A stretch of DNA of 64,000 bases from Methyloversatilis sp. (GTDB lineage Bacteria > Pseudomonadota > Gammaproteobacteria > Burkholderiales > Rhodocyclaceae), in contig NZ_JAUYNV010000056.1 of NCBI RefSeq assembly GCF_030698125.1, positions 25,781 through 89,780 of the forward strand. Direction: 5' to 3'. The position numbers and the translations under genes are program-made. Under the pieces are notes generated by a model, which was not told the origin of the DNA, made no database searches, and saw only the letters and a program-made list of their open reading frames with translations. Every line of letters begins with the position of its first letter. Position 1 is the first letter of the stretch. Shown here one piece after another: positions 13,840-61,619 of this stretch.

Positions 13840-13841
13840 TT

Positions 13842-15299: not shown

Positions 15300-15300
15300 G

Positions 15301-16824: not shown

Positions 16825-16856
16825 CGCGCTCCCTGTTACCCGCATACACTGTTCTC

Positions 16857-44760: not shown

Positions 44761-47367
44761 GTGGCCAAAGCCGCTGTATGGAAGACGGATTGGTTCCTGG
44801 GCGTCATCATCAGCCTGCTGTTCCTTTTCTCCACCCAGACCGACCTGATCCAGAGCCTCGAGCGCAAGGCGTACGACGTCGGTGTTGCGGCGACCGACCG
44901 TAGCCCCAGCCCGCGCATTGCGATCATCGCGATCGACCAGCAGAGCATCGACAACATCGGCCGCTGGCCATGGCCGCGTGATGTGCATGCCCGCATGATC
45001 GACAAGCTGGCAGAGGCGCAGGCCAAGGTGGTCGGAACGACGATCTTCTTCGCCGAGCCGCAGCTCGATCCGGGCCTTGTCTATATCAACCGGTTGCTTG
45101 CACTGGAGCAGCAGGCCCGTGACCAGATCGAAATAGCGGCGGCTGTCGAACCGCCTGCGGAAGGCGACGTGTTCGTTGAACCACCCGCGCCGGCCGTCAA
45201 TCCGCTGGAGGCGTTCGGCGCTACCCTGCGCGAGGCCGAAGCGGCACTGAACACTGATCGGCAGTTGGCCGACAGCATGAAGAAGGCGGGCAATGTCGCG
45301 CTGCCGATGCTGTTCCTCGACGGCGAACCGCAAGGTCGCCCCGACAAGCCGCTGCCGGAGTTCGTACGCGCCACTGCGTTGACGAATGTGAATGGTACCG
45401 AGCCGCTGCCGCCGCTGACGCTGGATGTGTCGGCCGGCGTCATCGAACAGCTGGGTACGGTCGCCGCAGCGGTCGGCCACCTGAATCCGTCGATCGATCG
45501 CGACGGCGGCCTGCGGCTGCACCCTCTGGTGATGACCCATTTCGACCAGCTCTATCCGTCGCTGCCGCTGCTGATTGCGGCAAGAAGCCTGAATCTCGGC
45601 GTCGCTGACATCAAGGTCACGCTGGGCGAGTCGGTGTCGCTGGCCCGTCTCAACGTGGCCACCGACCCGAGTCTGGGCATGTACAGCTTTTACTACCGCG
45701 GCGAAGGCGGCAAGCCGGCGTTTCCGGTCGATTCCTTCTTCGACGTCATGAGCGGCAAGATTCCGCTCGACAAGTACCGCGACCGCATCGTGCTGATCGG
45801 CCAGACCGCGCCGGGCATCGGCAATTTCTACGCCACCCCGGTGTCGCCGGCCATGTCGTCTGTCGAGGTGATGGCGCACGGCCTGTCCAGCATCCTGCAG
45901 GAACACTTCTTCGTGTCGCCACCGTGGTCGGTGGCGGCCGAGTTCGGCGTGTTCCTGCTGGTGGCGCTCTACCTGATCGTGCTGCTGCCGCGCTTGAAGG
46001 CGGGTCTGGGCGCCGGTGTCACCGCCGCGATCTTCGTTGCACTGCTGGTGACCCATTTCGTGCTGATGACGAACCAGTTGATCTGGCTGCAGTTGATGCT
46101 GCCCGCCGCACTGCTGCTGGTTGGTCACCTGTTGCTCACCACGAAGCGCTTCCTGGTGACCGAGCGCGGAAAGGTGAAGTCCGACGAACAGTCGGCCGAG
46201 TCGAACCGCATGCTGGCGCTGGCCTTCCAGGGACAGGGGCAGCTCGACATGGCGTGGGACAAGTTCCGCCAGGTTCCGCTGTCCGACGCGGTGATGGAAA
46301 ACCTCTACAACCTGGCGCTCGACTTCGAACGCAAGCGCCAGTTCAACAAGGCGGAAAGCGTGTTCCGCCACATGGCGGAATTCAATCCGAAGTTCCGCGA
46401 TCTGGAAACACGGGTGAAGCGCGCCAAGGCGATGTCGGAAACCGTCATGCTCGGCGGCGGCAGCGGTGGCCGGACGAATACCAGCATCCTCGAGGACGGC
46501 ACGGTCGAAAAGCCCATGCTCGGGCGCTACCAGGTCGAGAAGGAACTGGGCAAGGGCGCCATGGGCGTCGTCTATCTCGGGCGCGATCCGAAGATCAACC
46601 GTGTCGTGGCGATCAAGACGATGGCCCTGTCGCAGGAATTCGACGAGGAAGAGCTGGCCGACGTGAAGGAACGCTTCTTCCGCGAAGCCGAAACCGCCGG
46701 GCGCCTGAATCATCCGAACATCGTCACCATCTTCGATGCCGGTGAAGAGCACGACCTCGCCTACATCGCGATGGAGTTCCTGAAGGGGCGCGATCTGGTG
46801 CCGCAGACCAAGCCGGGCCAGCTGCTGCCGCTGCCGAAAGTGATGGACGTCGTGGCTCGCGTCGCCGAAGCGCTTGCCTACGCACACGGCAACAATGTCG
46901 TGCATCGTGACGTGAAGCCGGCAAACATCATGTTCGAGCCGGAATCGGACCAGGTGAAGGTGACTGACTTCGGTATCGCGCGCATCACTGATTCGTCACG
47001 CACCAAGACCGGCATGGTGCTCGGAACGCCGTCCTACATGTCTCCGGAACAGCTGGCGGGCAAGAAGATCGATGGCCGCTCTGACCTGTTTTCGCTCGGT
47101 GTCATGTTGTTCCAGATGGTGTGCGGCAAGTTGCCCTTCGCCGGGGATTCCATGGCGCAGTTGATGTTCCGCATTGCGAACGAAGCACATCCGGACATCC
47201 GTGACATCCGTCCTGACGTTCCGGATTGCCTGTCGGCCATCATCGACCGCGCGCTCGCCAAGGACGTCGAGGCGCGTTATCAGTCGGGCGGAGACATGGC
47301 GGCCGACCTGCGTACCTGCGCCGGCAACCTGACACAATCCATCACCCAAGTTGATTTCGATATCTGA
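44761..47367 (+). CDS. CHASE2-domain Ser/Thr protein kinase
   Basis: The 868-residue membrane kinase has one N-terminal helix, a large extracytoplasmic CHASE2 sensor (about residues 30-380), and three more helices (about 385-475). A TPR-like cytoplasmic linker (about 490-570) follows, and a Hanks-type kinase domain ends it (about 587-855). The glycine loop GKGAMGVVYLG, VAIKTM lysine, catalytic HRDVKPANIMFE, DFGIAR and GTPSYMSPEQ are intact, so it should be active. The GTG at 44761 is preferred (CGGGGG at about 6 bases upstream); GTG at 44755 or an ATG at 44641 are possible. It begins a signalling gene run with phosphatase, FHA protein and cyclase. Confidence 0.92.
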   Translation: MAKAAVWKTDWFLGVIISLLFLFSTQTDLIQSLERKAYDVGVAATDRSPSPRIAIIAIDQQSIDNIGRWPWPRDVHARMIDKLAEAQAKVVGTTIFFAEPQLDPGLVYINRLLALEQQARDQIEIAAAVEPPAEGDVFVEPPAPAVNPLEAFGATLREAEAALNTDRQLADSMKKAGNVALPMLFLDGEPQGRPDKPLPEFVRATALTNVNGTEPLPPLTLDVSAGVIEQLGTVAAAVGHLNPSIDRDGGLRLHPLVMTHFDQLYPSLPLLIAARSLNLGVADIKVTLGESVSLARLNVATDPSLGMYSFYYRGEGGKPAFPVDSFFDVMSGKIPLDKYRDRIVLIGQTAPGIGNFYATPVSPAMSSVEVMAHGLSSILQEHFFVSPPWSVAAEFGVFLLVALYLIVLLPRLKAGLGAGVTAAIFVALLVTHFVLMTNQLIWLQLMLPAALLLVGHLLLTTKRFLVTERGKVKSDEQSAESNRMLALAFQGQGQLDMAWDKFRQVPLSDAVMENLYNLALDFERKRQFNKAESVFRHMAEFNPKFRDLETRVKRAKAMSETVMLGGGSGGRTNTSILEDGTVEKPMLGRYQVEKELGKGAMGVVYLGRDPKINRVVAIKTMALSQEFDEEELADVKERFFREAETAGRLNHPNIVTIFDAGEEHDLAYIAMEFLKGRDLVPQTKPGQLLPLPKVMDVVARVAEALAYAHGNNVVHRDVKPANIMFEPESDQVKVTDFGIARITDSSRTKTGMVLGTPSYMSPEQLAGKKIDGRSDLFSLGVMLFQMVCGKLPFAGDSMAQLMFRIANEAHPDIRDIRPDVPDCLSAIIDRALAKDVEARYQSGGDMAADLRTCAGNLTQSITQVDFDI

Positions 47368-47368
47368 C

Positions 47369-47449
47369 ATGACACAGTCCGCATGCCCACACCACCTGCT
47401 GTCCCCGGAGGGGATGTGTCCGTGTATCCGCTCGCCCGGGCAGTACTGA
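47369..47449 (+). CDS. Possible 26-residue Cys/His-rich peptide
   Basis: An ATG one base after the kinase stop opens a 26-codon frame that ends one base before the phosphatase start. Both junctions read TGACATG. The peptide contains Cys6, His8, His9, Cys17 and Cys19 (ACPHHL and MCPC), a spacing that could hold a metal ion or redox pair, and ends RSPGQY. No strong ribosome binding site is seen; translation would rely on termination-reinitiation. I recognise no family. It could also be an untranslated spacer. Confidence 0.4.
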   Translation: MTQSACPHHLLSPEGMCPCIRSPGQY

Positions 47450-47450
47450 C

Positions 47451-48254
47451 ATGATCCGGGATCTCGGTCAGGCGCTGCAGATGGTCAGTCGCACCCATTC
47501 CGGCATGGTGCGCACCCACAACGAAGACGCGGTGTTTACGCAGCCCGGTGTCGGCCTCGCGATACTGGCCGACGGCATGGGCGGCTACAACGCCGGCGAA
47601 GTGGCGAGCGGCATGGCCACAGCGGTCATCGGTTCGGAGCTTGCGCAAGGTCTGCAGGAAGCGAAACACGGCGTGTCGCAACTGCTGGAAGCGGTCATCG
47701 GCCACGCCAACAGCTCGATCTATCAGGCCGCCGAGAGCCAGCCGCAGTATTCGGGCATGGGTACGACGCTGGTCATGGCTGTATTCCGCGACAATCACAT
47801 ATCCGTTGCGCATATCGGCGATTCGCGCATGTACCGGCTGCGCGACGGCGCTTTCGAGTGCGTCACGCGTGATCACTCGCTGTTGCAGGAGCAAATCGAC
47901 AGCGGCATGATTACGGAAGAAGACGCTCGCCGTTCCCAGAACAAGAACCTCGTGACGCGCGCGCTGGGTGTCGATCCGGAGGTCGAGCCCGAAATACACA
48001 CCTACGAAGTGGTTCCCGGAGACGTATATCTGTTCTGTTCCGACGGACTGAACGACATGGTCGAGAACGACGACATCGCGCTCACGCTTCAGGCGTTGTC
48101 CGCCAACCTCGATCTGGCAGCCGAACAACTGGTACAGATGGCGAACGACAACGGCGGACGCGACAATGTGTCGGTGATACTGGTCAGGGTGCTGCAGGCC
48201 TTTCCTGCCACCGAACGCGGCTTGCTTGCGCGCCTGCTCGCATGGTTGAAGTAA
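47451..48254 (+). CDS. PP2C-type Ser/Thr protein phosphatase
   Basis: The 267-residue PPM/PP2C phosphatase should reverse the action of the kinase upstream. Metal-binding motifs are intact: HNEDA near the start, LADGMGGYNAGE, HIGDSRMYRLRDG, FCSDGLNDMV and GGRDNVSVILV. A short C-terminal tail (RGLLARLLAWLK) is amphipathic and may touch the membrane. It is separated from the FHA gene by 12 bases. Confidence 0.94.
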   Translation: MIRDLGQALQMVSRTHSGMVRTHNEDAVFTQPGVGLAILADGMGGYNAGEVASGMATAVIGSELAQGLQEAKHGVSQLLEAVIGHANSSIYQAAESQPQYSGMGTTLVMAVFRDNHISVAHIGDSRMYRLRDGAFECVTRDHSLLQEQIDSGMITEEDARRSQNKNLVTRALGVDPEVEPEIHTYEVVPGDVYLFCSDGLNDMVENDDIALTLQALSANLDLAAEQLVQMANDNGGRDNVSVILVRVLQAFPATERGLLARLLAWLK

Positions 48255-48266
48255 AGGGACTGGAAA

Positions 48267-49058
48267 ATGGCAAAACTGATACTGAGCATGGATGGACTGG
48301 TCCTCAAGGAGTTGCCGCTCGCCAAGGAGCGCACCACGATTGGGCGCAAACCGCACAACGACATCCAGATCGACAATCTTGCGATCAGCGGCGAGCACGC
48401 GGTCATCGTCACCATCCTCAACGATTCCTTCCTTGAGGACATGAACAGCACGAACGGCACCTATGTGAACGGGCAGCCGATCAAGAAGCACTTCCTGCAG
48501 AACAACGACGTGGTCGAGCTCGGCAAGTACCGGCTCAAGTACATCAACGAAACGCCGACTGTCGCGCAGTCGCCTGACTTCGAAAAAACCATGGTGTTGC
48601 GCCCGGACATGATGCGCAAGGCGCCGGCCGATGCACCGCCCGCACCGGCACCAGTGCGCACCCAGACCGATACGCAGACCGGTTTCCGTCCTGGTCAGTC
48701 GATGCCGGCCGGTTCGTCGCTCGGCGGCTCGGGTCTGCCCCCGCCTCCGCCCCCGCTGGCACCCCCGCCGCCGCCTCCGGCCGCAAGCGCCAACCAGGTC
48801 GGCGCGATCCAGATCCTGAACGGTGCCAATGCAGGACGCGAACTTGAATTGACGAAGACCTTGACCACGCTCGGCAAACCGGGGCTGCAGGTCGCCGTCA
48901 TCACACGCCGCCCTCAGGGTTACTTCATCACCCATGTCGAAGGCGCCAACATGCCGGTCGTCAACGGTCGCCAGCTCGATGCCCAGGCGCATCCGCTGGA
49001 GGATCACGACGTGATCGAGATCGCCGGTGTGAAGATGGAGTTCTTCATCAAGCGCTGA
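48267..49058 (+). CDS. Double-FHA-domain protein
   Basis: The 263-residue protein has an N-terminal FHA domain (about residues 20-95: TTIGRKPHNDIQID, SGEHAV and NSTNGTYVNG). A linker with FEKTMVLRPD (Thr108) and a Pro-rich tract (about 150-175) come next. A second, degenerate FHA-like domain is C-terminal (about 180-260: TLGKPGLQVAVITRRPQG and VNGRQLD). FHA domains bind phosphothreonine. The EKT-hydrophobic site preceding the Pro-rich linker resembles kinase target sites in other FHA proteins, so it may be a kinase substrate as well as a reader. Confidence 0.9.
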   Translation: MAKLILSMDGLVLKELPLAKERTTIGRKPHNDIQIDNLAISGEHAVIVTILNDSFLEDMNSTNGTYVNGQPIKKHFLQNNDVVELGKYRLKYINETPTVAQSPDFEKTMVLRPDMMRKAPADAPPAPAPVRTQTDTQTGFRPGQSMPAGSSLGGSGLPPPPPPLAPPPPPPAASANQVGAIQILNGANAGRELELTKTLTTLGKPGLQVAVITRRPQGYFITHVEGANMPVVNGRQLDAQAHPLEDHDVIEIAGVKMEFFIKR

Positions 49059-49080
49059 CGACCCCCGGCCCGAGCCTGTC

Positions 49081-49179
49081 ATGCTGCCGCGTCCGGTGCC
49101 TGCCGTCCGCCGCCTTTCAGGGCATGTGCCGGATGAGGCGCTGCCTGCATCGGGGTGTGCTGCCGGGCGTATGCAATGA
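49081..49179 (+). CDS. Possible 32-residue small ORF before the cyclase
   Basis: An open frame in the 117-base gap ends with TGA overlapping the cyclase ATG (ATGA). The peptide is Arg/Pro/Ala-rich without a recognisable motif. The overlap follows automatically from an ATGA start, and no ribosome binding site is obvious, so support is weak. Confidence 0.15.
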   Translation: MLPRPVPAVRRLSGHVPDEALPASGCAAGRMQ

Positions 49180-51413
49180 ACCAGAACGCGCTGCGCTACG
49201 GCATCGGTCTGCTGTTCCTGCTGATCCTGCTCGGCCATGCCGCCCGCCTGTACCAGATACCGGTGCTGGGCAACCTTGATCACATCGCCTACGACACCAA
49301 GCTGTCGCTGACGATGCCGGGGAGTATCGATGACCGGGTGGTCATTCTCGACATCGATGAAAAGTCGCTGACCGAAGTCGGGCGCTGGCCATGGGGGCGG
49401 GAACGGCTCGCAGTGCTGATGGACTTGCTGTTCGACCGCTACGGCGTCAGCCTGCTTGGCGTCGACGTTGTGTTCGCCGAACCGGACACCAGTTCGGGCC
49501 TGCCGGCGCTGGAAGGCCTCGCGCAAGGCGTGCTGGCCGACAACGCCGATTTCCGCGCATCGCTCGACACGCTGAGGCCGCAGCTCGACTACGACCAGCG
49601 GTTTGCGGCCTCTCTCAAGAACCGGCCCGTCCTGCTGGGCTACTACTTCGGCAACCGCGAAGACGGTCTGAACAGCGGCGCGCTGCCGGAGCCGGTGTTG
49701 CCGGCCGGCACCTTTCGCGGCCGCAACATCGCGTTTGCGACCTTCAACAGCTTTGGTGCCAATCTTCCGCGCTTCCAGCAGGAGGCGCTCGGCGCCGGCC
49801 ATTTCAATCCGCTGCCCGATTTCGACGGTCTGAACCGGCGCGTGCCCATGCTGGTGGAACACAAGGGCGCTTATTACGAATCGCTGTCGCTTGCCATTGT
49901 CCGCACGTTGCTCGGCAGTCCGAAGCTGGCACCGGGATACGCCGAAAGCGGCTTTTTCTCTTCGGCCAGCCGGGACTACGCCGGACTCGAATGGCTGGAA
50001 CTGCCGACCAGCAAGGGCACATTGCGCGTGCCGGTCGATGAAAACGTTGCTGCGCTCATTCCCTATCGCGGCCTGCAAGGCAGTTTTGCGTACCACTCGC
50101 TGGCGGATGTACTCGCCGGTCGCACGCCGGTCGATGCGTTGAAAGGCCGGATTGCGCTGCTCGGTACCACCGCGCCCGGGCTGCTCGACCTGCGTGCCAC
50201 GCCGGTCGGCAGCACCTATCCCGGGGTGGAAATCCACGCCAACCTGATCGCCGGCATGCTGGACGGCGACATCAAGCATCGCCCGCAATACGTCACCGGT
50301 TTCGATGTGGTCGTGCTGCTTGTGATCGGCGGCCTGCTGATCTGGTCGCTGCCTCGGCTGTCGCCACAGTACGCAACGCTGCTGGCCGGCGGCGCGCTGC
50401 TCGCGCTGGTCGGCATGAACTTCGCCTTCTGGCAGTTTGCCGACTTCGTTCTGCCGCTGGCGGCATCGGTGTTGCTCGTCGTCGGGCTATATGCGCTTAA
50501 CATGTCGTACGGCTACTTCTTCGAGTCACGGTCGAAGCGGCAATTCACCCGCATGTTCGGGCAGTACGTGCCGCCCGAACTGGTGGAGGAAATGAGCCGC
50601 AACCCGGAGCACTACAGCATGGAAGGCCGGAATGCCGAGCTGACCGTACTGTTTTCGGACATCCGGGGCTTCACCAGCATTTCGGAAGGCCTCGAACCGA
50701 AACAATTGACACAGCTCATGAACGATTACCTGGGCGCAATGACTGCGGTGATTCAGGATCAGCGTGGGACGCTCGACAAGTACATCGGCGACGCCATCAT
50801 GGCGTTCTGGGGCGCGCCGGTAGATGACCCCGAACATGCCCGGCACGCCGTGGCGGCAGCCTTGCGCATGCACGCCGCGCTGGCTGAGCTGAACCGTTCG
50901 CTGACGGCGCGTGGCTGGCCGGAACTGAAGATAGGCGTGGGTTTGAACACCGGCCCGATGACGGTCGGAGACATGGGGTCGCCAGTACGCAAAGCCTATA
51001 CTGTCATGGGCGATGCGGTGAATCTGGCGTCCCGCCTGGAGGGGCTCACGAAGCAGTACGGCGTGGGCATACTGGTTGGCGAAGCGACGCGACGTGCGGT
51101 CAAGGATGTCGTATTTCGCGAGATCGACCGGGTGCGGGTGAAGGGCAAGGACGAGCCGGTGTCGATTTTCGAACCGCTCGCCTTCGAAAGCGAATTCGAC
51201 CGCAGTCGGGTCGAGGAACTGAAACTGTGGAATCTCGCGTTGCGACAGTTCCGCGGTCAGGAGTGGGATCAGGCCGAACTGACCTTGTTCAACCTGCAGC
51301 GCATTGCGCCGGACTGCGGGCTGTACCGGCTGTACGCCGAACAGATTGCCGATTACCGCCGTCACCCGCCCGGCAAGGACTGGGACGGCGTGCGGACATT
51401 TGAAACGAAGTAG
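49176..51413 (+). CDS. CHASE2-domain adenylate cyclase
   Basis: The 745-residue protein has an N-terminal helix (about residues 6-24), an extracytoplasmic CHASE2 sensor (about 30-375), three helices (about 378-455) and a class III cyclase domain (about 490-675). Metal ligands are in LFSDIRGFTS and YIGDAIMAFWG; the Lys in LDKYIGD and Thr in YTVMGDAVNLAS are the ATP-selecting pair seen in many bacterial cyclases. cAMP is the expected product. ATG at 49176 is chosen over ATG at 49155. The C-terminal tail after 680 is helical. It shares its sensor type with the kinase four genes upstream. Confidence 0.92.
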   Translation: MNQNALRYGIGLLFLLILLGHAARLYQIPVLGNLDHIAYDTKLSLTMPGSIDDRVVILDIDEKSLTEVGRWPWGRERLAVLMDLLFDRYGVSLLGVDVVFAEPDTSSGLPALEGLAQGVLADNADFRASLDTLRPQLDYDQRFAASLKNRPVLLGYYFGNREDGLNSGALPEPVLPAGTFRGRNIAFATFNSFGANLPRFQQEALGAGHFNPLPDFDGLNRRVPMLVEHKGAYYESLSLAIVRTLLGSPKLAPGYAESGFFSSASRDYAGLEWLELPTSKGTLRVPVDENVAALIPYRGLQGSFAYHSLADVLAGRTPVDALKGRIALLGTTAPGLLDLRATPVGSTYPGVEIHANLIAGMLDGDIKHRPQYVTGFDVVVLLVIGGLLIWSLPRLSPQYATLLAGGALLALVGMNFAFWQFADFVLPLAASVLLVVGLYALNMSYGYFFESRSKRQFTRMFGQYVPPELVEEMSRNPEHYSMEGRNAELTVLFSDIRGFTSISEGLEPKQLTQLMNDYLGAMTAVIQDQRGTLDKYIGDAIMAFWGAPVDDPEHARHAVAAALRMHAALAELNRSLTARGWPELKIGVGLNTGPMTVGDMGSPVRKAYTVMGDAVNLASRLEGLTKQYGVGILVGEATRRAVKDVVFREIDRVRVKGKDEPVSIFEPLAFESEFDRSRVEELKLWNLALRQFRGQEWDQAELTLFNLQRIAPDCGLYRLYAEQIADYRRHPPGKDWDGVRTFETK

Positions 51414-51435
51414 TGTCTTGCTGGATAAGGAACTG

Positions 51436-52203
51436 ATGAGGATACGGGTGCTCGGTTGCAGTGGCGGTATTGGTGGTGCAAATCTGCGCACCACCTCGCT
51501 GCTCGTGGACAGCGACATCCTGATTGACGCCGGTACCGGCGTCGGCGACCTGTCGATCGCCGAGCTGTCGCGCATAGACCATGTGTTCGTCACGCACAGC
51601 CATCTCGATCACATCGCCTGTCTGCCGCTGATGGTCGACACGGTAGGCGAGCTGCGCGACACGCCGCTGACCGTGTGGACGACCGGTCCGACGCTGGAAG
51701 TGTTGCGACGCCACATCTTCAACTGGTCGATCTGGCCCGATTTCACCGAAATTCCGTCTGCCGAGAAGCCCTTCATGCGCTTTCGCGAACTGCGCGTCGG
51801 CGACGAGATCGAGCTGGGTGGACGCGCCATCCGGGTGCTGCCTGCGCAACACACCGTTCCGGCCGTCGGTTATGCCGTGCGTTCGGCGGGCGGCACGCTG
51901 GCGTTCTCCGGCGACACCACGGTGTGCGACGAATTCTGGTCGGCCGTCAATGCGCTGCCCGACCTGCGCTACCTCATCATCGAAACCGCGTTCCCTGACC
52001 GTGACCGCCAGCTGGCGGTGATGTCGCGCCATCTGTGCCCGGACATGCTGGCGGGCGAGCTCCAGAAACTCGAACATCCTGCCGAAATCTACATCACGCA
52101 TCTGAAACCGAGCCAGATGATCATGACCATGCGCGAGATCGCCGAAACATTGGGCGCACTGCAACCGCGCATGTTGCGCAACAATCATGTTTTCGACTTC
52201 TGA
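51436..52203 (+). CDS. Metallo-beta-lactamase-fold phosphodiesterase, cAMP class II-like
   Basis: The 255-residue protein has the metal-binding HSHLDHIACLP motif, a later Asp in FSGDTTVCDEFW, and His residues in PAQHTVPAVGY and YITHLKPSQM. This matches class II cyclic-nucleotide phosphodiesterases (PdeA/CpdP-like) within the MBL superfamily. Position directly after an adenylate cyclase supports cAMP as substrate. ATG at 51436 with ATAAGGAAC upstream is chosen; the open frame extends back into the cyclase gene. Confidence 0.8.
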   Translation: MRIRVLGCSGGIGGANLRTTSLLVDSDILIDAGTGVGDLSIAELSRIDHVFVTHSHLDHIACLPLMVDTVGELRDTPLTVWTTGPTLEVLRRHIFNWSIWPDFTEIPSAEKPFMRFRELRVGDEIELGGRAIRVLPAQHTVPAVGYAVRSAGGTLAFSGDTTVCDEFWSAVNALPDLRYLIIETAFPDRDRQLAVMSRHLCPDMLAGELQKLEHPAEIYITHLKPSQMIMTMREIAETLGALQPRMLRNNHVFDF

Positions 52204-52272
52204 CCGGCTGTCAGCACATCTGCGCGGCGCCGTCGCGCGGGGTGCGCCGGCCAGCGGAAACGAGGTGATCGA

Positions 52273-54648
52273 ATGAGTGCAGTGATGCCGCCGGCGAGTG
52301 ATCTGGGCGCCATGAGCGATGTATCGAGCCGGCTGGCCTTCTTCAAGAATCTTCAGGGCGTCACGACGAAGATTCACGCCACCACGAACATCGACGAAAT
52401 CATGCTGGAGCTGTCGCAGGAGATTTCTGCGCTGTTCAACGCCGATCGTCTGACCATCTACGTGCTGGGCGACGACAAGTCCACCATCGTGTCCAAGGTC
52501 AAGACCGGTCTCAATTCGTTCAAGGACCTGCGGTTGCCGCTGACCGAACAGTCGGTGGCCGGTTTCGTCGGCATGAGCCGTAACCTGCTGAATCTGCGGG
52601 ACGTGTACGACGAAGAAGAGCTGAAGTCGCACTCGCCCAGCCTGCGGTTTCTCGATGGCGTCGACAAGAAGACCGGCTACCGCACCAAGCAGATGCTGGT
52701 CGCACCCATCCTCGATCCGGAAAAGAAGGATCTGCTGGGTGTCGTCCAGCTGATCAACAACAAGTCCGGCCAGCCCTTCTCGGCACTTGCCGAAGAGGGC
52801 TTGCTCAGTATGGCGCACACGCTGGCGGTTGCTTTCCAGCAGCGCAACCGGGTCACCCACGTCGTGAAGTCGAAATACGACTATCTCGTGGTCGATGGCG
52901 TCATGTCGCCGCAGGAGTTCGATCTGGCGTCGCGTGCCGCGCGGCGCAAGGGCGTCGATGTCGAGGACGTGCTGGCGCGCGACTTCCAGGTCAAGCAGCA
53001 GGCGATCGGTGCGTCGCTGTCCAAATTCTTCGGCGTCGCCTATGAACACTTCCGGCCCGAGCGCATCAAGCCGTTCGACCTGATCAAGAATCTCAAGCGC
53101 GAGTATCTCGAAGAACAGCAGTGGGTGCCGGTGGAAGAGGGCAAGGACGGCATCGTCGTGATGGCGCTCGACCCGGAAAAGGTCAAGGGCGCGCGCGTCG
53201 TCAACAACATCTTCCCGAAGTCCAAACTGCTGTTCCGCGTCACCACGACGAAGGAATTCGTGCAGACGCTCGACCAGTTCTACGGTTCGACGATGGACGA
53301 AACCAGCGTCGGCGACCTGCTGTCGGACATGCTGGGCGAGGACGAATCCGCGCAGGACGCCGGCAATGACGACGTCAGCGCCGCCGCCGACAACGAACTG
53401 GTGCGGCTGGTGAACAAGATCATCATCGACGCCTACCAGCAGGGCGCCTCCGACATCCACATCGAACCGCGGCCCGGCAAGGACAAAACCCTGGTGCGCT
53501 TTCGCAAGGACGGCACGCTGCACCCCTACATCGAGGTGCCTGCCAGCTACCGGAGTGCGCTGGTCACCCGTCTGAAGATCATGTGCGACCTCGATATTTC
53601 CGAGCGCCGCAAGCCGCAGGACGGCAAGATCAAGTTCCGCAAGTTCGGCCCGCTCGACATCGAATTGCGGGTGGCGACCATCCCTTCAGCTGGCGGCGTC
53701 GAAGATGTCGTGATGCGTATCCTCGCTGCCGGCGAGCCGATCCCGATGGACAAGCTGGGCGTGCTGCCGGCCAACCTCAGCCGGCTGAAGGACGCGGTCA
53801 GCAAGCCCTACGGCCTCTTTTTCGTCTGCGGCCCGACCGGCTCCGGCAAGACCACCACGCTGCATTCCATACTCGGCTACATCAACACACCGGAAACCAA
53901 GATCTGGACCGCCGAGGACCCGGTCGAAATCACGCAGAAAGGTTTGCGCCAGGTACAGATCAACAAAAAGGCCGGGCTGGACTTTCCGGCCATCATGCGC
54001 GCCTTCCTGCGGGCCGACCCGGACGTGATCATGGTCGGTGAAATGCGCGACAAGGAAACGGTGGCGATCGGCATCGAAGCTTCGCTCACCGGCCACCTGG
54101 TTTTCTCGACGCTGCACACCAACAGCGCGCCGGAATCCATCGTGCGTCTGCTCGACATGGGCATGGACCCTTTCAACTTTGCCGACGCATTGCTCGGCGT
54201 GCTGGCTCAACGCCTCGCCAAGCGGCTGTGTCCGGTGTGCAAGGAAGCCTGGCATCCGAGCGACGACGAAATGAAGCACTTCCTGCAGGAGTACTGCGAG
54301 GAAATGCGCAATACGCCGGATTTCGTGGTCGATGCCGAAGGTGCGATGGCGCGCATCTTCAATGAATGGAAAAAGGCGTATGCCGACGACAAGGGCCGCT
54401 TCACGCTCTACCGTGCCAAAGGGTGTCCGGAGTGCGGTGAAACCGGCTACCGCGGGCGGCTCGGCCTGCACGAGTTGATGATCGGTACCGACGCAATCAA
54501 GAAGAACATCCAGGAGCGTGAGCGCGTGGCCACCATGCTGGCGACTGCGCTGCAGGAAGGCATGCGCACGCTGAAGATGGACGGCATGGAAAAGGTGCTG
54601 TCGGGCGCGACGGACATGAAGCAGGTTCGCGCGGTCTGCATCAAGTAG
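52273..54648 (+). CDS. GAF-domain-fused PilB/GspE-like ATPase
   Basis: The 791-residue protein joins an N-terminal GAF domain (about residues 25-195) to an MshEN/GspE N-terminal module (about 200-345) and a secretion/pilus ATPase core. Walker A is GPTGSGKTTTLH (about 519), Walker B region is DPDVIMVGEMRD, and TLHTNSAPES is the histidine box. A zinc tetracysteine (CPVC...CPEC) with an enlarged loop of about 65 residues lies near 655-725. Known relatives extrude pilins or pseudopilins; here the GAF domain could tune this to a small ligand. It follows the phosphodiesterase and precedes the HD-GYP gene. Confidence 0.88.
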   Translation: MSAVMPPASDLGAMSDVSSRLAFFKNLQGVTTKIHATTNIDEIMLELSQEISALFNADRLTIYVLGDDKSTIVSKVKTGLNSFKDLRLPLTEQSVAGFVGMSRNLLNLRDVYDEEELKSHSPSLRFLDGVDKKTGYRTKQMLVAPILDPEKKDLLGVVQLINNKSGQPFSALAEEGLLSMAHTLAVAFQQRNRVTHVVKSKYDYLVVDGVMSPQEFDLASRAARRKGVDVEDVLARDFQVKQQAIGASLSKFFGVAYEHFRPERIKPFDLIKNLKREYLEEQQWVPVEEGKDGIVVMALDPEKVKGARVVNNIFPKSKLLFRVTTTKEFVQTLDQFYGSTMDETSVGDLLSDMLGEDESAQDAGNDDVSAAADNELVRLVNKIIIDAYQQGASDIHIEPRPGKDKTLVRFRKDGTLHPYIEVPASYRSALVTRLKIMCDLDISERRKPQDGKIKFRKFGPLDIELRVATIPSAGGVEDVVMRILAAGEPIPMDKLGVLPANLSRLKDAVSKPYGLFFVCGPTGSGKTTTLHSILGYINTPETKIWTAEDPVEITQKGLRQVQINKKAGLDFPAIMRAFLRADPDVIMVGEMRDKETVAIGIEASLTGHLVFSTLHTNSAPESIVRLLDMGMDPFNFADALLGVLAQRLAKRLCPVCKEAWHPSDDEMKHFLQEYCEEMRNTPDFVVDAEGAMARIFNEWKKAYADDKGRFTLYRAKGCPECGETGYRGRLGLHELMIGTDAIKKNIQERERVATMLATALQEGMRTLKMDGMEKVLSGATDMKQVRAVCIK

Positions 54649-54676
54649 GCCGCGGGCGCTGACCGGAACGCACGCC

Positions 54677-56308
54677 ATGGATACCCTCGACGATCTGCTG
54701 CGGCGCCTGGAACAGCTCAACGAGATCGGCAGCGCGCTGTCGAACGAGCGCAACATCGATGCGCTGCTCGAAAAGATCCTGCTGGCGGCCAAAACCATCA
54801 CCCATGCCGACGGCGGTACGCTGTACCGCATCGACGACGCGGGCGAGCACCTGCGCTTCGAAATCCTGCGTACCGACTCGCTGGGTATTGCGATGGGCGG
54901 CAGCACCGGCAAGCCGATAGCCTTTCCGCCGCTGCCGCTGCATCTCGACGACGGCTCGCCCAATCTGTCCATGGTGGCGGCCTACAGCGCGCTGAAGGGA
55001 CAGACGGTCAACATCGCCGATGCCTACCGCGCCGAAGGTTTCGACTTTTCCGGCACGCGCGCCTTCGACGCACGCACCGGCTACCGTTCGACCAGCTTCC
55101 TGACCGTGCCGATGATGAACCACGAGGGTGCGGTGATCGGCGTGCTGCAGCTGATCAACGCCGTGCATCCGGTCACCGGCGCCGTCGGGATCTTTTCCGG
55201 CTCGGATCGCCAGCTGGCCGAATCACTGGCCTCGCAGGCCGCCATCGCGCTGACCAACCGCCAGCTGGTGAGCCAGCTCGAAGCGCTGTTCGAATCCTTC
55301 ATCACGCTGATCAACAACGCGATCGACGAAAAGTCGCCGTACACCGGCGGCCACTGCCAGCGCGTGCCGACGCTCACGATGATGCTGGCCGAGGCGGTGA
55401 ATGACACGCAGGATGGCCCGCTCGCCGGCTTCACGATGACCGAGGCCGATCGTTACGAACTGAAGATCGCCGGTCTGCTGCACGATTGCGGCAAGGTCAC
55501 GACGCCGGTGCACGTGGTCGACAAGGCCACCAAGCTGCAGACCATTTTCGACCGCATCGAACTGATCGACACCCGCTTCGAACTGATCCGGCGCGACATC
55601 GAACTGGCCACCCTCAACAGCCGTTTCGCTGCCGGCCTCAATGCCTCACCCGCCGTTCTGGCCCAGATCGAGCGTCATGGTGCCGACCGGCTGCGCGACA
55701 TCGACGAAGACCGCGCCTTCCTTCACCACGCCAACATCGGTTCCGAACGCATGAGCGATGCCGACGTCGAGCGCGTGCATGCCATCGCCCGCCGCTGGCA
55801 CTGGACCGATTCACAGGGCACGGAACGGTCCTGCCTGAGCGAGGAAGAAGTCGAAAACCTGACCATACGCGCCGGCACGCTCACCGGCGCCGAGCGGGAA
55901 ATCATCAACTACCACATCGTATCGACGATACGCATGCTCGAAGCACTGCCCTGGCCGCGCCACCTGACCAATGTGCCGGAATACGCCGGCGGTCACCACG
56001 AGCGCATGGACGGCAAGGGCTATCCGCGCGGGCTCGCGCGCGACCAGATGAGCGTGCAGGCGCGCGTGATGGGCATCGCCGACATCTTCGAGGCGCTGAC
56101 CGCGAAAGACCGGCCGTACAAGCGCCCGATGCGGCTGTCGGAAGCCCTGCACATCCTCGGCAAGTTCCGTCTGAACGGCCACATCGACTCCGATCTGTTC
56201 GACGTGTTCGTGCGCCGCGAGGTGTATCTCAAGTACGCCGAAACCTTCCTCGACCCGGAACAGATCGACGACGTCGACCTGTCGGCCATCCCCGGCTTCC
56301 AGCCCTGA
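54677..56308 (+). CDS. GAF-HD-GYP domain protein (putative c-di-GMP phosphodiesterase)
   Basis: The 543-residue cytoplasmic protein has a GAF domain (about residues 10-200) and an HD-GYP domain (about 210-520). GGHCQRVP, LLHDCGK (HD at about 270) and HHERMDGKGYPRGL (GYP at about 448) are present, so metal ligands appear intact. The span from HD to HHE is about 167 residues against roughly 56 in typical family members, pointing to an insertion of about 110 residues (about 285-390). It should cleave c-di-GMP or a related dinucleotide. It starts 28 bases after the ATPase gene. Confidence 0.88.
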   Translation: MDTLDDLLRRLEQLNEIGSALSNERNIDALLEKILLAAKTITHADGGTLYRIDDAGEHLRFEILRTDSLGIAMGGSTGKPIAFPPLPLHLDDGSPNLSMVAAYSALKGQTVNIADAYRAEGFDFSGTRAFDARTGYRSTSFLTVPMMNHEGAVIGVLQLINAVHPVTGAVGIFSGSDRQLAESLASQAAIALTNRQLVSQLEALFESFITLINNAIDEKSPYTGGHCQRVPTLTMMLAEAVNDTQDGPLAGFTMTEADRYELKIAGLLHDCGKVTTPVHVVDKATKLQTIFDRIELIDTRFELIRRDIELATLNSRFAAGLNASPAVLAQIERHGADRLRDIDEDRAFLHHANIGSERMSDADVERVHAIARRWHWTDSQGTERSCLSEEEVENLTIRAGTLTGAEREIINYHIVSTIRMLEALPWPRHLTNVPEYAGGHHERMDGKGYPRGLARDQMSVQARVMGIADIFEALTAKDRPYKRPMRLSEALHILGKFRLNGHIDSDLFDVFVRREVYLKYAETFLDPEQIDDVDLSAIPGFQP

Positions 56309-56432
56309 ACGGACAATTTGCGTCACATGCTGCCTGTGCGCGTCAGCACGCAGGCATCTGTTTCGGACTGTATCAGCACAAGCGGAAATAAAAAATACTG
56401 TAAATCAAGCGTTTGTAAAAAATCGCTAAAGC

Positions 56433-56448
56433 TGGCACCCGCCTTGCT
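56433..56448 (+). promoter_or_regulatory. Sigma-54 promoter of the pilin gene
   Basis: TGGCAC (56433-56438), five bases, then TTGCT (56444-56448) match the -24/-12 consensus of RpoN promoters exactly. Transcription should begin near 56460, about 40 bases before the pilin ATG. An AT-rich tract lies just upstream (56386-56430), where an NtrC-family activator such as PilR may bind. Confidence 0.9.
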
Positions 56449-56502
56449 CGATATCACCCTGAGCGCACAGGCGCCCGTTCCGTTCAATTCCAGGAGAGTG
56501 AT

Positions 56503-56964
56503 ATGAAAAAGGTTCAACAAGGCTTTACGCTGATCGAACTGATGATCGTGGTGGCCATCATCGGCATTCTGGCCGCGATCGCGATTCCGCAGTATCAGGA
56601 CTACACGGTACGGGCGAAGATCAGCAGCGTCCTGGCTTCGGTCGGTGCAGTCAAGACGGCAGTGGGTATATGCATTCAGGAACAGGGCGGCGACGCCACA
56701 AACTGTAACGGCGGAAGTAACAACATCCCGAGTACTCTTTCGACTAATGAAATCAAGAGCATAGCAGTAGCGGCAGGTGTAATCACGATTACCCTGAAGT
56801 CCGGGATCGGCAAGGACATTCCGGACGATTCGACAATTATTCTGACGCCTACAGCTGCCGCGAATTCGGCCAGTGTGACGTGGGCTTACACGAAAACGGG
56901 CTTGACGAATGCGGTTGCTATTACAGCAATCGAGAAGACCTATTCGTCAGGCGGCGGCAGCTAA
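56503..56964 (+). CDS. pilA: Type IV major pilin (PilA-like)
   Basis: The 153-residue type IVa prepilin has a six-residue basic leader, cleavage before Phe8 ([16 protein letters not shown]), Glu+5 and the long N-terminal helix. Cysteines 57 and 68 are close together behind the helix; there is no C-terminal disulfide loop. The protein ends TYSSGGGS with a C-terminal Ser, the residue glycosylated by TfpO in other bacteria. CAGGAGAG precedes the start. Sigma-54 control is indicated by the promoter. It lies upstream of a putative oligosaccharyltransferase. Confidence 0.95.
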
Positions 56965-56989
56965 CCGCTACAGCTTCAACCAAGCATGG

Positions 56990-57016
56990 GAGGGGGCTTG
57001 TTGGAGCCCCCTCTTT
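56990..57016 (+). terminator. Terminator-like hairpin between pilA and the glycosyltransferase
   Basis: A 9-bp stem (GAGGGGGCT, loop TGTTGG, AGCCCCCTC) is followed by TTT. The T run is short (TTTCGTT), so read-through into the next gene is likely, giving high pilin and low transferase expression. Confidence 0.75.
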
Positions 57017-57044
57017 CGTTAACCCAGTTGAATCGAATTCTGCA

Positions 57045-58505
57045 ATGTCGGACGCAATGCGCTTGCAAGCCCGAACCGATCATAGTGAAAGCGTCCGCAT
57101 CGCAAGCGTGCTCAGCACCTTTCTGTTCCTTCTTGTCGGCTTTTTCCTGCTGCTAGAAAAGGTGGATTACCCGCGATCCTGGTACGACCATCAGCGCCTG
57201 ATGGAACTGATCGTAATCACGCTGTCAGTTGTGTTCCTGCCTTTTCTGCCTTTGTTCAGCGCTTCGCGTCTTGTGTGGGCGCTTTCGGTTATCGCGCTGG
57301 TGCTGCTTACCGTGGTGACTGTCCACGGCGCCTCGCTGCGTCCGGTGCTCATTGAATCGTTCACCCTTGCATTGCTGGTTATCGCAGCGATCTGGTGGGC
57401 CGGGGTGATTCGCAACTGCCGGCTGACTGATGCGCTTCTGTTGAGTACACAGTTATCGATCGCCGTCTATGTCGCCATCTCCCTACTCTGGTTTGCGGCG
57501 TCATTGGCTAGCGGTCTGCTGCCGGATCCGTTCAATTTCTTCGAAGGTTTCATCAACCCTCGCTTCTTCGGCGCTTGGGTGACATTGTCGTGGCCGCTGC
57601 TGTTGCTGCGCCCCCGGCTGCCGGGGACTGTTTCGCCATCCTTCGCGCGACTTCTGACCAGCCTGCTGTTTGTCCTTGCGGCATTGTGGTGGTCGCTCGC
57701 CTTCTTTTCCGGGACGCGCGCCACCTGGCTTGCCGCAGTGGTGACGCTTGCACTCACCGCGCTTTGCAGTCCGGCGTCACGACGTGTTGCACTTCATGGG
57801 GTTCTGGTTATTGCAGCCGGGTATCTGCTTCAGCAACTGCTGTTTGTGAAGATGCCGCTCTGGGTGACCGGGATGGAAGTGTCGGATGCGCTGGACCGCC
57901 TGCGCGAAGGGGCCAGTCTTTCGAATCGCGATGTGCTGTGGCGGGCGGCCTGGCAGGGCATCGTCGAACGCCCCTGGCTGGGCGCCGGACCGATGATGTT
58001 CTCGGCGACCAACAATGGCGTTGCGAGCACGACGCACAACATCGTGTTGCAACTGGCCTATGAGTGGGGTGTGCCATTCGCATTGCTGGTGATTGCTGCA
58101 ACCGTCCGCGCACTTTGGCGGCAGTTTCAGCGATGCCGGCTCGATGCATCGCCTGCCAGTGCGCAAACCCGGCTTGTCTTGTGGATGTGCATCGTCGGCG
58201 GGCTGATCGAAGCGCAGCTGGACGGGCTGCTGAGTGCACCGCACAGCCAGTTGCTGTTCGTCGTGCTGGTCGCCTGGCTGCTATCGCTGGACGAGCCACC
58301 AGCGGTCCGACTCAGTGCGCTTCAGTTGAATCAGTGGAAAGTACTTCGCTTTGCGCCGCTGGCCATGATGCTGACCCTGTGGTGGGCCATCTGGCCTGAG
58401 TTATCCAATCTGGAACCGTGGGAAACCCAAACCCTAGCCCTCACCGGCGTCGGGCATTTTCAGCCCCGGTTCTGGTTGCAGGGTGTGATATTCCCGCCGC
58501 CTTAG
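57045..58505 (+). CDS. O-antigen ligase-like pilin oligosaccharyltransferase (TfpO/PglL-like)
   Basis: The 486-residue polytopic membrane protein has about 11-12 hydrophobic segments and the Wzy_C/O-antigen ligase pattern, including the periplasmic loop with STTHNIVLQLAYEWGVP. The His there (about residue 331) corresponds to the key residue of PglL/PilO enzymes. Directly downstream of a pilin ending in Ser, it most likely attaches a glycan to the pilin. A role as ordinary O-antigen ligase cannot be excluded. ATG at 57045 is chosen; the open frame upstream overlaps pilA. Confidence 0.82.
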   Translation: MSDAMRLQARTDHSESVRIASVLSTFLFLLVGFFLLLEKVDYPRSWYDHQRLMELIVITLSVVFLPFLPLFSASRLVWALSVIALVLLTVVTVHGASLRPVLIESFTLALLVIAAIWWAGVIRNCRLTDALLLSTQLSIAVYVAISLLWFAASLASGLLPDPFNFFEGFINPRFFGAWVTLSWPLLLLRPRLPGTVSPSFARLLTSLLFVLAALWWSLAFFSGTRATWLAAVVTLALTALCSPASRRVALHGVLVIAAGYLLQQLLFVKMPLWVTGMEVSDALDRLREGASLSNRDVLWRAAWQGIVERPWLGAGPMMFSATNNGVASTTHNIVLQLAYEWGVPFALLVIAATVRALWRQFQRCRLDASPASAQTRLVLWMCIVGGLIEAQLDGLLSAPHSQLLFVVLVAWLLSLDEPPAVRLSALQLNQWKVLRFAPLAMMLTLWWAIWPELSNLEPWETQTLALTGVGHFQPRFWLQGVIFPPP

Positions 58506-58968: not shown

Positions 58969-59046
58969 GTCTGTCTCCTCCGTCATTTTCAGGGCGCGCC
59001 GCAGTGTGCGTGTCGGGCGTGACAGTGGAATGAATGCACGGCGATG

Positions 59047-60534
59047 TCAGCGCGGCAACGCCATGCGCGACAGGCGTTTCAGCAGCTTCGGCGCGTCGCT
59101 GACGATCTTGCGATAGCGCGACCGGTGATGACGTGCGATCAGCGCCACGGCAGCCACGAGGTCGGGGTCGTCGCCGGCGGCGGCGAGCAGGCGCGGGCCG
59201 GCCTGGCTCAGGTCGTTCAGGAAGCCGAGATCTTCCTGCGCCTGCATCAGCGCGCCGATCGCCCGTTTGGTCTTGCGTGGCCCAAGCAGCGGTGCGAAGA
59301 ACTCGATCGCATAGCGCAAGCGTTTGATGTCGATGCGCAGCGCATGCAATGCAGCGATATCGCCATCGGCTGCGTGCCGGCAGCCGTCGACCATGCGTGC
59401 GTGGGCGCGGGCAAGGCGCTTGTGGGCCAGCGTGCGCAGATCGCCGTCGTCATCCGGCGGCAGTTCGTGCAGCGCGCGCAGCAGCGCCATCATCAGTCTG
59501 GCTTGCCGGCCGTCCTGCAGCGCCTTCTGAACGCGGTCGCGCACCTGCTGCCGGGTGGCATGCAGCGCCGTATCGAGTGCGTGCAGATTATCGTCAGCGT
59601 TGTGCGCAAGCACGGGCGCAAGCAGTTCGGACTGCAGTACGTCGCGGTCGCGCAACTCGCCGAGATCACCGGCCAGCGCGCGCAGCGGCAATGCGAGATC
59701 GGCCACCATGCCGTCGGGCAGCGCCGGCGCGAACAGACGCAGCGCGCTTCTCAGGCGGCGCAGCGCCACCCGCATCTGGTGGATGAATTCCGGCGCATCG
59801 GACTGCAGGGCACCGATTTCGTTGGACTGATAGTGCTGGATGCAATCCAGCGCGACCGCGCGGAACGCATGCCGTGCGCCGCCGTGCGGATCGACCGGCG
59901 AACGGGTGGCACGCACCGGCTGACACGGCTTGTCTTCGATCAGTGCGTATCCGCGCTGCGCCTTGCTGCGCGATTCGGCACGCAGAGGCAGCGTGCGCAC
60001 CAGGGTGTCGGCGTGGTCGAGCAGCGCTTCGATCGGCGCGCCGGCCAGTTCCAGTTCCAGTTCGGAAATGCTGTCGCGACGCCCGGCTGCTTCGATCATG
60101 CCGCGGTCGGCCATCAACAGCAGTTCGCCGTCGCCTGCTGCGAAGCGCCACTCGCGCCGTTCGAAATTCGTCTCGAACACCTGCGCCAGCAAGCCGCGGT
60201 CGCGCATGCCTTCGAGCAGGCGACGCAGTGCGGCGTCATCGACCTGCGAAAAATCGAACAGGCCGGTAAACGGTTGTTCCCACTCCGGCCGGGAAGACAG
60301 GCCAGCACTGGCGGCACTGGCGCATTTGACCGTCTGCAGCCATCGCCTGCCGACGCGGCGCAGCCGCAGCGCGGCTCGCTGCTCGCGCAGGCGGAAGTCC
60401 GGCGTGTCGAAATAGAGGTTGCGCAAGGTGTGCGTCTGCGGCGCAGCGATCGCCTGGCGCAGCAAGGGGTGCCGCGAGAAGGCACGCCATCCGTGTTCGG
60501 CGAGCGCCAGCTTGAGTTCCGTTTCCCGGCCCAT
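59047..60534 (-). CDS. CYTH-CHAD domain protein (inorganic triphosphatase-like)
   Basis: The 495-residue protein joins an N-terminal CYTH domain (about residues 1-205; ETELKLAL with the ExExK signature, and LYFDTPDFRLRE) to a C-terminal CHAD domain (about 220-490; IHQMRVALRRLRSALRLF). CYTH proteins such as YgiF hydrolyse tripolyphosphate; CHAD domains bind polyphosphate. Both parts have the expected basic/acidic residues. It is upstream of sixA on the same strand. Confidence 0.92.
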   Translation of the reverse strand: MGRETELKLALAEHGWRAFSRHPLLRQAIAAPQTHTLRNLYFDTPDFRLREQRAALRLRRVGRRWLQTVKCASAASAGLSSRPEWEQPFTGLFDFSQVDDAALRRLLEGMRDRGLLAQVFETNFERREWRFAAGDGELLLMADRGMIEAAGRRDSISELELELAGAPIEALLDHADTLVRTLPLRAESRSKAQRGYALIEDKPCQPVRATRSPVDPHGGARHAFRAVALDCIQHYQSNEIGALQSDAPEFIHQMRVALRRLRSALRLFAPALPDGMVADLALPLRALAGDLGELRDRDVLQSELLAPVLAHNADDNLHALDTALHATRQQVRDRVQKALQDGRQARLMMALLRALHELPPDDDGDLRTLAHKRLARAHARMVDGCRHAADGDIAALHALRIDIKRLRYAIEFFAPLLGPRKTKRAIGALMQAQEDLGFLNDLSQAGPRLLAAAGDDPDLVAAVALIARHHRSRYRKIVSDAPKLLKRLSRMALPR

Positions 60535-60627
60535 GACTGTCCTTGCGCATCGGGCGTCACTGCCCGGAAGGCATCGATGGTAGAACGAAAAGGCCCCGCT
60601 TCGTCACCTTGCGGCGGCGCGGTCGAT

Positions 60628-61137
60628 TCAGTCCGCCTGCCAGTGCCCCGATTTGCCGCCAGCCTTTTCCAGCAGGCGGATGTTACCGATCTGCATGCCG
60701 CGGTCCACCGCCTTGCACATGTCGTAGATGGTCAGCAGGGCCACGCTGACCGCGGTCAGCGCCTCCATCTCGACGCCGGTCTGCCCCGTGGTGCGTGCAG
60801 TAACTTCGCAATGCACGGCGCTGCCGGATGCATCGAGCGTGAAGTCCACGCTGACCTTGGTCAGTGCGATCGGGTGGCACAGCGGAATCAGGTCGGACGT
60901 GCGCTTCGAAGCCTGGATGCCCGCGATGCGCGCCACGCCCAATACGTCGCCCTTCTTCGCGGTGCCGTCGCGCACCAGTTCGAAGGTGGCCGGCAGCATG
61001 GTGATCGACCCGGCGGCGCGCGCCACGCGCGTGGTGTGCGCCTTGTCGCCGACATCGACCATGTGGGCCTGGCCTTCGGCATCGAAATGTGTCAACTGAG
61101 GAGTCAGCTGAGGGGGCAGCGGCTTGTCGGCACTCAA
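60628..61137 (-). CDS. moaC: Cyclic pyranopterin monophosphate synthase MoaC
   Basis: MoaC completes the first stage of molybdenum-cofactor synthesis from GTP. The 169-residue protein has [28 protein letters not shown] and [20 protein letters not shown], including the catalytic Asp and Lys region. The other moa genes are not in this window. It lies 11 bases after the receiver-domain gene. Confidence 0.95.
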
Positions 61138-61148
61138 GGTTCGAAGCC

Positions 61149-61619
61149 TCAGCGCGCCATCGCCGACGGATGCGGCGGCTGGATGTTCAGTTCGAGCCAG
61201 TAGCGGGCCAGCAGCGTCAGCGTTTCGGAAAAGCTTACAAAGTCGAGCGATTTGCGGACGAAGCTGTTGGCGCCAAGCTGGGCTGCGGTGCGGATGTCTC
61301 GCTGCTGCGAGGAGGCGGACACGACGACCACCGGCAACACGTGCGTCTGCGGGTCGGCGCGTACCAGGCGCAGCACCTCCATGCCATTGATGCGCGGCAG
61401 CGTCAGGTCGAGCATGATCAGCGCGGGTTGGTAACGGGTATCGCGTCCGGCGTAGTTGCCGCGCCCGAACAGATAGTCGAGCGCTTCCTCGCCCGATGGC
61501 ACGACCTTGATCTGATTGGCCGGCACGATGGTACGCAGCGCCGTAGTGACGAGCTTCACATCTTCGGGCACGTCTTCAATCAGCAGCAGTGAGTGCGAAC
61601 CAACCGGAATCGATGACAT
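61149..61619 (-). CDS. Single-domain response regulator
   Basis: The 156-residue protein is a lone receiver domain: [13 protein letters not shown] (acidic pair), phosphoacceptor Asp in [16 protein letters not shown], Ser/Thr in VVSAS and Lys in VRKSLDF. It resembles Rcp1-type phytochrome/chemoreceptor-associated regulators, which carry a longer loop between strand 2 and 3 (YLFGRGNY). There is no output domain. ATG at 61619 lacks a strong ribosome binding site; no kinase is adjacent. Confidence 0.85.

Follow-up and report, generated by a model that had tools for sequence, protein, structure and literature searches.

Seven adjoining genes on the + strand (44761–56308) of a 64,000-nucleotide stretch of Methyloversatilis sp. 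contig NZ_JAUYNV010000056.1 (hereafter the window; genome size 4.2 Mb) encode a CHASE2 Ser/Thr kinase, a PP2C phosphatase, an FHA protein, a CHASE2 nucleotide cyclase, an MBL-fold hydrolase, a GAF-bearing motor ATPase and a GAF-HD-GYP protein. This cluster is real, widespread across many beta-proteobacteria and undescribed in the open-access literature as searched. We put a probability of roughly 0.5 on its acting as a single circuit that controls an accessory type IV pilus motor, in which the GAF domain of the ATPase is predicted to bind the cyclic AMP (cAMP) that would come from the neighbouring cyclase. Gene content, synteny, conserved residues, the absence of a cyclic di-GMP (c-di-GMP) motif from the ATPase and its co-occurrence with PilQ were observed directly. 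The type of the ATPase GAF, together with the missing c-di-GMP motif, appears to be the new point, and direct gating of the motor by cAMP is what it predicts. No description of a GAF-bearing pilus ATPase or of this cluster was recognised among titles and abstract openings in the open-access literature, in agreement with an earlier note on this DNA, which knew of no system with this content. The word 'GAF' occurs nowhere in the main text of the review PMC11656802.

Conservation of the cluster

The loci of 80 ATPase relatives, the best of at least 593 from a scan of genome contigs, were each screened for the seven families, by BLAST first and then with profiles made from the homologues. A locus was counted as eligible where it held enough flanking DNA for the gene or genes in question. 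Loci L171–L177 were chosen by hand. Of 51 eligible loci, 35 had all seven genes on a single strand, and the gene order of the window was seen there, so the lack of synteny that the earlier note had named as fatal to its proposal was not what we found. Individually, same-strand homologues were present for the kinase in 43/59 eligible loci, PP2C in 55/63, FHA in 57/64, the cyclase in 50/67 (five more on the other strand), the MBL hydrolase in 63/74 (six more) and HD-GYP in 62/70 (three more). Record titles of the carriers included Rhodocyclaceae, Gallionellales, Nitrosomonadales, Oxalobacteraceae and Burkholderiales, among others. Across the order (Burkholderiales) the ATPase was present in 162 of 399 sampled genomes (E 1e-100 or better, some matches spanning the query only partly), and those with names among the 120 matches listed bore general secretion- or pilus-ATPase names only.

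Conservation extended to the active sites. Among aligned homologues (at least 45% identity over 70% of the window protein, possibly with one species included twice), the catalytic key residues of the kinase, phosphatase, cyclase, MBL and HD-GYP proteins were nearly invariant. The HRD, DFG and VAIK motifs of the kinase were conserved, as was T601 in SETVML (47/48), and the motif Asp residues of PP2C were kept in 59–60 of 60 homologues. Cyclase residues D502, K542, D546, T616, N623 and R627, which we take to be the two metal Asp, the adenine Lys and Thr, and the Asn and Arg of a class III adenylate cyclase, were each found in 63/63. The HxHxDH metal ligands of the MBL hydrolase were retained in 75/75 homologues, and the HD-GYP signature in HDCGK (99/99), HHE (99/99) and GYP (98/99).

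The composition of the cluster varied between loci. Five of them (Herbaspirillum, Noviherbaspirillum, Undibacterium and two metagenome-assembled genomes) carried the cyclase, HD-GYP and MBL genes on the opposite strand, adjoining the ATPase, with no kinase arm found in these five. Of the 18 GAF-type loci that lie outside the order, 6 retained the cyclase and/or HD-GYP gene near the ATPase, one of them with the MBL gene as well; the kinase, PP2C and FHA genes were not found in any of the 18. At L159:10992-13262 a CHASE2 cyclase homologue adjoins the GAF-ATPase, its cyclase domain being unrecognised by Pfam and without the catalytic motifs searched for. Because of this pattern of presence and absence across loci, each covered over 20 kb at most, the ATPase, cyclase, HD-GYP and perhaps MBL genes look like an older core to which the phosphorylation arm was added.

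A further gene, whose product joins a cyclic-nucleotide-binding (CNB) domain to a rhodanese domain (CNB-rhodanese), lay between the MBL and ATPase genes in 31 of 76 loci (L046–L121). A phosphate-binding-cassette-like (cyclic-nucleotide) motif was present in all 25 full-length copies, and the closest solved structures to the CNB domains were cyclic GMP- and cAMP-dependent kinases, making a second cAMP receptor of the cluster possible. The gene is absent from the window, where the MBL-ATPase gap is 69 bp, and the genome holds no close copy (best E 3.7e-9). One recurrent neighbour family, seen in 10 loci, looked like a shadow ORF of the CNB gene in a shifted frame.

The pilin gene behaved differently from the seven. 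The sigma-54 promoter that the earlier note had assigned to pilA was confirmed: 56433–56448 is the sole exact TGGCAC-N5-TTGCW match within the window, and of 54 pilin-family open reading frames (ORFs) in related loci, 52 of them testable, 40 had a site with no more than one mismatch in the 250 nt preceding them, versus 1.8% of random 250-nt stretches from the same loci. The site is therefore taken as real and pilA as having its own promoter. A same-strand pilin was found in 31 of 54 eligible loci, and two others had one on the opposite strand. Its typical distance downstream of the ATPase was 3.4 kb, and the family was not found beside the ATPase outside the order. By these counts pilA is a looser, separately promoted partner of the cluster. 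What had been proposed as one circuit setting a dedicated ATPase thus stands as to the conserved unit and its invariant catalytic residues, but the kinase arm looks added and the pilin only loosely attached.

Separate signalling genes might simply travel together as a neighbourhood without joint function. Subsets of the cluster do occur, in 36 different arrangements (many truncated by contig ends), and pilA has its own promoter, but the full single-strand set in 35/51 loci and the persistence of cyclase, HD-GYP and MBL genes beside the ATPase in rearranged loci make this explanation highly improbable.

GAF domain and c-di-GMP motif of the ATPase

We compared 103 GAF-type ATPases (85 plus 18), each with at least 90% profile coverage; shorter ones and loci L013–L041 (29) were set aside. 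The best solved relative of the ATPase GAF was CyaB2 (1ykd; E 7e-25 with the single sequence, 5e-40 with the profile), followed by phosphodiesterase (PDE) GAFs and PmGH. The cAMP contacts of CyaB2 include R291, T293 and D356 (PMC4411481, in excerpt). The matching ATPase residues were R59 (103/103), T61 (101/103) and D131 (103/103), the contact set of a cyclic-nucleotide GAF, and the position of CyaB2 N359 was occupied by T or S, T being the residue in PDE2/PDE5. The genome's 21 GAF loci were also scored against a profile of four cyclic-nucleotide-binding GAFs (four of five typed GAF pieces, PmGH excluded), which was drawn from the ATPase's own match list and so favours the ATPase; the ATPase GAF reached 78 bits, the GAF of the HD-GYP protein 48 and a third 19, eight others scored below 8 bits and 10 of the 21 gave no match. 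The nearest solved structure to the HD-GYP protein's GAF was PDE5 (E 1e-14), PmGH ranking lower. On this profile both cluster GAFs score as cyclic-nucleotide type. The cAMP-type GAF carried by the ATPase itself probably links the motor directly to the cAMP enzymes.

One feature of the domain weighs against cAMP binding. The NKFDE motif is incomplete in the ATPase GAF, reading mostly N, K/R, F and E without D in Burkholderiales ATPases and N, K/R, F and D without E outside the order. As clean proof of cAMP binding it fails in part, and a fold search does not discriminate between ligands. The cluster could then be a functional unit whose GAF binds another ligand or none, with cAMP acting elsewhere (on CNB-rhodanese or Crp-type regulators) and the kinase-FHA arm mainly controlling the ATPase. 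The incomplete NKFDE would fit this, as would the nearly identical contact residues of the PmGH GAF, the CNB gene in 31/76 loci and the action of cAMP on Pseudomonas aeruginosa pili through Vfr (PMC11656802, in excerpt). We consider it unlikely, though a serious contender, since the contact residues are near-invariant across 103 ATPases and the cyclase remains linked where the kinase, phosphatase and FHA genes were not found.

The second part of the argument concerns c-di-GMP. The c-di-GMP motif of MshE-type motors, a motif pair, follows the extended consensus (R/K/L)LGxx(L/V/I)(L/V/I)xxG... (PMC11731258, in excerpt). A relaxed core of this motif was found in none of the 103 GAF-type ATPases versus all 14 nearest relatives without this GAF (L139–L148, L165 and L167–L169), whose MshEN carries it; the pattern had been relaxed on these same 14, of which L169 is truncated where its contig stops and L165 comes from the same order. 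An earlier, stricter pattern matched 5/14 and again 0/103. The N-terminal part of L139, the one such relative tested, matched no Pfam family above the cut-off. Absence of the motif alone is not special, because three of the genome's four other large ATPases lack the core too (1/4 has it); it is against the nearest relatives that the difference stands out. With the core in 0/103, c-di-GMP as a direct ligand through MshEN was rejected. The GAF types formed one clade in the ATPase tree (100/99), in which the mutual placement of the genome's four other ATPases was left unused because of very long branches.

These observations would fit a swap of messenger in this pilus-motor clade, a tentative reading to which we give somewhat less than even odds: the ancestral c-di-GMP sensor would have decayed and a cAMP-binding GAF taken over. 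The result would be a pilus motor under direct cAMP gating, encoded together with a dedicated cyclase and hydrolase, a cAMP-type HD-GYP protein and, often, a CNB-rhodanese receptor; the beta-proteobacteria would have added a Thr-phosphorylation switch.

The partner machine and the proposed circuit

Described as 'PilB-like' in the earlier note, the ATPase is not PilB by the NCBIfam cut-off. It scored below those for PilB (462.5/675.65), GspE (441.5/630.25) and TfpB (396.8/850), and PilB or TfpB identity was rejected on these scores. It belongs to the T2SSE superfamily (T2SSE 389 bits), and GPTGSGKTT, D584, G589, E590, R592, H608 and H615 were invariant in 103/103 ATPases. Elsewhere the genome encodes a PilB, which adjoins a PilC/GspF-type protein that reaches none of its cut-offs. 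It also has three ATPases of the PilT family, two further GspE/PilB-like ATPases and a TfpB; the last, on contig C22, exceeds the TfpB cut-off (897.5 versus 850 bits) in a beta-proteobacterium.

A PilQ-type secretin (E 1e-40) was present in 161 of 162 ATPase carriers versus 184 of 237 non-carriers (Fisher p 2e-12, uncorrected for relatedness), the sole carrier without it being a 64%-complete genome. GspL (E 1e-10) was commoner in carriers (60/162) than in non-carriers (46/237; p 1e-4) yet absent from most carriers, and was not detected at that threshold in the window's genome. A classical type II secretion system (T2SS) was rejected as the partner on these two counts. Because PilQ accompanies 161/162 carriers and GspL is absent from most, the ATPase more likely works with a shared type IV pilus machine. 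A role for it as an extension motor, driving pilin polymerisation, is a prediction with indirect backing from the PilQ co-occurrence and the pilin neighbours.

The ATPase might instead serve signalling or secretion, as a T2SS-like ATPase or an exopolysaccharide regulator, with an incidental pilin linkage. Its scores below the PilB, TfpB and GspE cut-offs would agree with this, as would the absence of a platform gene from a Pfam scan of its window neighbours, the pilin family not being found beside it outside the order, the enrichment of GspL in carriers and the ability of M. xanthus PilB to act in exopolysaccharide control (PMC5544727, in excerpt). However, Walker A and the other tested ATPase residues are invariant, PilQ far outnumbers GspL among carriers and a same-strand pilin recurs in 31/54 loci, so that we regard a role other than extension as quite unlikely.

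In the cAMP-gated pilus circuit that we favour, cyclase and kinase would sense an envelope or surface cue through their CHASE2 domains, from which this step is deduced. The class III cyclase is predicted to produce cAMP and the MBL hydrolase to remove it. In the GAF pocket of the ATPase, cAMP would alter ATPase activity or docking state, replacing the c-di-GMP switch of MshE/PilF-type motors. The same pool may act on the GAF of the HD-GYP protein, lowering c-di-GMP, and on CNB-rhodanese where present. The kinase would phosphorylate the FHA protein, with T108 as the candidate site, whereupon FHA 1 would bind in cis or trans; PP2C would reset this phosphorylation, and the arm would decide whether the motor is engaged. 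T601 of the kinase is a further predicted phosphorylation site. As no platform gene stands beside it in the window, the motor would dock alongside PilB and TfpB on a shared pilus machine, where it would extend the pilin driven by sigma-54.

Parts of this circuit resemble known systems. Type VI secretion (T6SS) has a threonine phosphorylation pathway made up of PpkA, PppA and Fha. Ser/Thr kinase, PP2C and FHA genes stand together in the window as they do in that pathway (PMC5995506, in excerpt), but here the sensor is CHASE2 and the partner a pilus-type ATPase; no T6SS family, and hence no linked T6SS core, was found among the 18 ORFs scanned at 39695–63242. MshE and PilF are c-di-GMP-gated pilus ATPases (PMC4624772, PMC11731258, both in excerpt) and likewise combine a motor with N-terminal second-messenger and MshEN-type domains; window-type ATPases differ in lacking the c-di-GMP motif core and in their added cAMP-type GAF, and are not of MshE type. 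Acinetobacter baylyi uses TfpB as a second extension motor (PMC8213720, in excerpt), similarly a PilB-like ATPase present besides canonical PilB, whereas the window ATPase carries a GAF, comes with a signalling cluster and shares its genome with a separate TfpB-level protein. The GAFs of Anabaena CyaB2 and mammalian PDEs share the contact residues R, T and D and the overall GAF type, but here a single GAF sits on a motor ATPase and its NKFDE is incomplete. PmGH (4mcw) has the same GAF-HD-GYP domain order as the cluster's protein, whose GAF is by sequence nearest that of PDE5. Finally, the P. aeruginosa Pil-Chp/CyaB/Vfr system places type IV pili under cAMP control, as predicted for the window cluster, but does so through Vfr transcription (PMC11656802, in excerpt), whereas the cluster would act directly on the motor.

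If true, a cAMP-reading motor would be a further level of control over pili, fast and local, at which cAMP, c-di-GMP and Ser/Thr phosphorylation converge on one machine. Where a bacterium has several PilB-like ATPases, each may answer a different messenger, and this question is directly testable.

Gene layout of the window

All nine genes named in the earlier note are present by Pfam/NCBIfam domains, on the + strand, in the order and close to the positions it gave (Table 1), and Pfam also bore out its pairs of CHASE2 genes (kinase, cyclase) and GAF genes (ATPase, HD-GYP). The starts of the kinase, cyclase, MBL and ligase genes were placed at the onset of conservation, that of the ligase by eye alone; the kinase ORF opens at 44641, and the conservation onset favours a GTG start near 44761. 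With these starts the gaps among the first seven genes are 12–117 bp, and the 194-bp gap from HD-GYP to pilA holds the sigma-54-type site.

Table 1 Features of the cluster and its downstream genes in window coordinates
Feature	Position	Strand	Basis
CHASE2 - Ser/Thr kinase	44761..47367	+	Pfam CHASE2 182 bits, Pkinase 185 bits
PP2C phosphatase, Stp1/IreP family	47451..48254	+	NF033484 255.1 bits, cut-off 230
FHA protein: canonical FHA 1, DFEKT(108)M linker, divergent FHA-like second domain	48267..49058	+	PF00498 85 bits
CHASE2 - class III nucleotide cyclase, predicted adenylate cyclase	49176..51413	+	CHASE2 170 bits, Guanylate_cyc 84 bits
MBL-fold hydrolase, putative cyclic-nucleotide phosphodiesterase	51436..52203	+	Lactamase_B_2, PDEase_II 48 bits
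GAF - degenerate MshEN - T2SSE motor ATPase	52273..54648	+	Pfam; GAF ~residues 30-200, ATPase 372-785
GAF - HD-GYP, predicted c-di-GMP phosphodiesterase	54677..56308	+	HD_5 138 bits, GAF 50 bits
Sigma-54-type -24/-12 promoter of pilA	56433..56448	+	exact TGGCAC-N5-TTGCT
Type IV pilin, PilA-like	56503..56964	+	N_methyl and Pilin
Wzy_C O-antigen-ligase-type protein	57045..58505	+	PF04932 42.1 bits, cut-off 31.7; start inferred

The FHA protein had been called a double FHA, which holds for its first half but not fully for its second. FHA 1 is canonical and was supported by the structure model and by fold matches, FHA 1 filling the fold-match list of the whole protein; residues 174–263 are divergent, scoring 17.9 bits for FHA (below the Pfam cut-off of 20.7), are beta-rich in the structure model and, by eye, lack SxxH. 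T108 of the linker motif was kept in 58 of 59 homologues. The MBL hydrolase scored 46.6 bits against NF041851 (cyclic-nucleotide-degrading phosphodiesterase; cut-off 400), far below membership, and its nearest solved relative by sequence was 3',5'-cyclic-nucleotide phosphodiesterase 1 (4ojv, E 1.3e-9 over 60 residues).

The gene after pilA, previously taken for a glycosyltransferase, encodes a Wzy_C protein instead, and its role is perhaps pilin glycosylation. Downstream of the ATPase, at about +6 kb, 24 loci (L100:16017-18227 is one) share a TPR-rich family whose representative, a TPR-Glyco_transf_41 (OGT-like) protein, differs in kind from the window's Wzy_C protein. Beyond that Wzy_C gene, a 719-codon ORF (59044–61203, + strand) without a Pfam match has an odd Gln/Arg/Ala-rich composition and is perhaps the shadow of an opposite-strand gene. 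A second pilus/secretion-like locus occupies 2316–16863 on the - strand, with a secretin, T2SSF, T2SSE, a TPR protein, an AAA_22 (ExeA-like) ATPase and an NtrC-type sigma-54 activator; the MshEN of its T2SSE keeps a c-di-GMP-type motif core, and another class III cyclase lies at the locus end.

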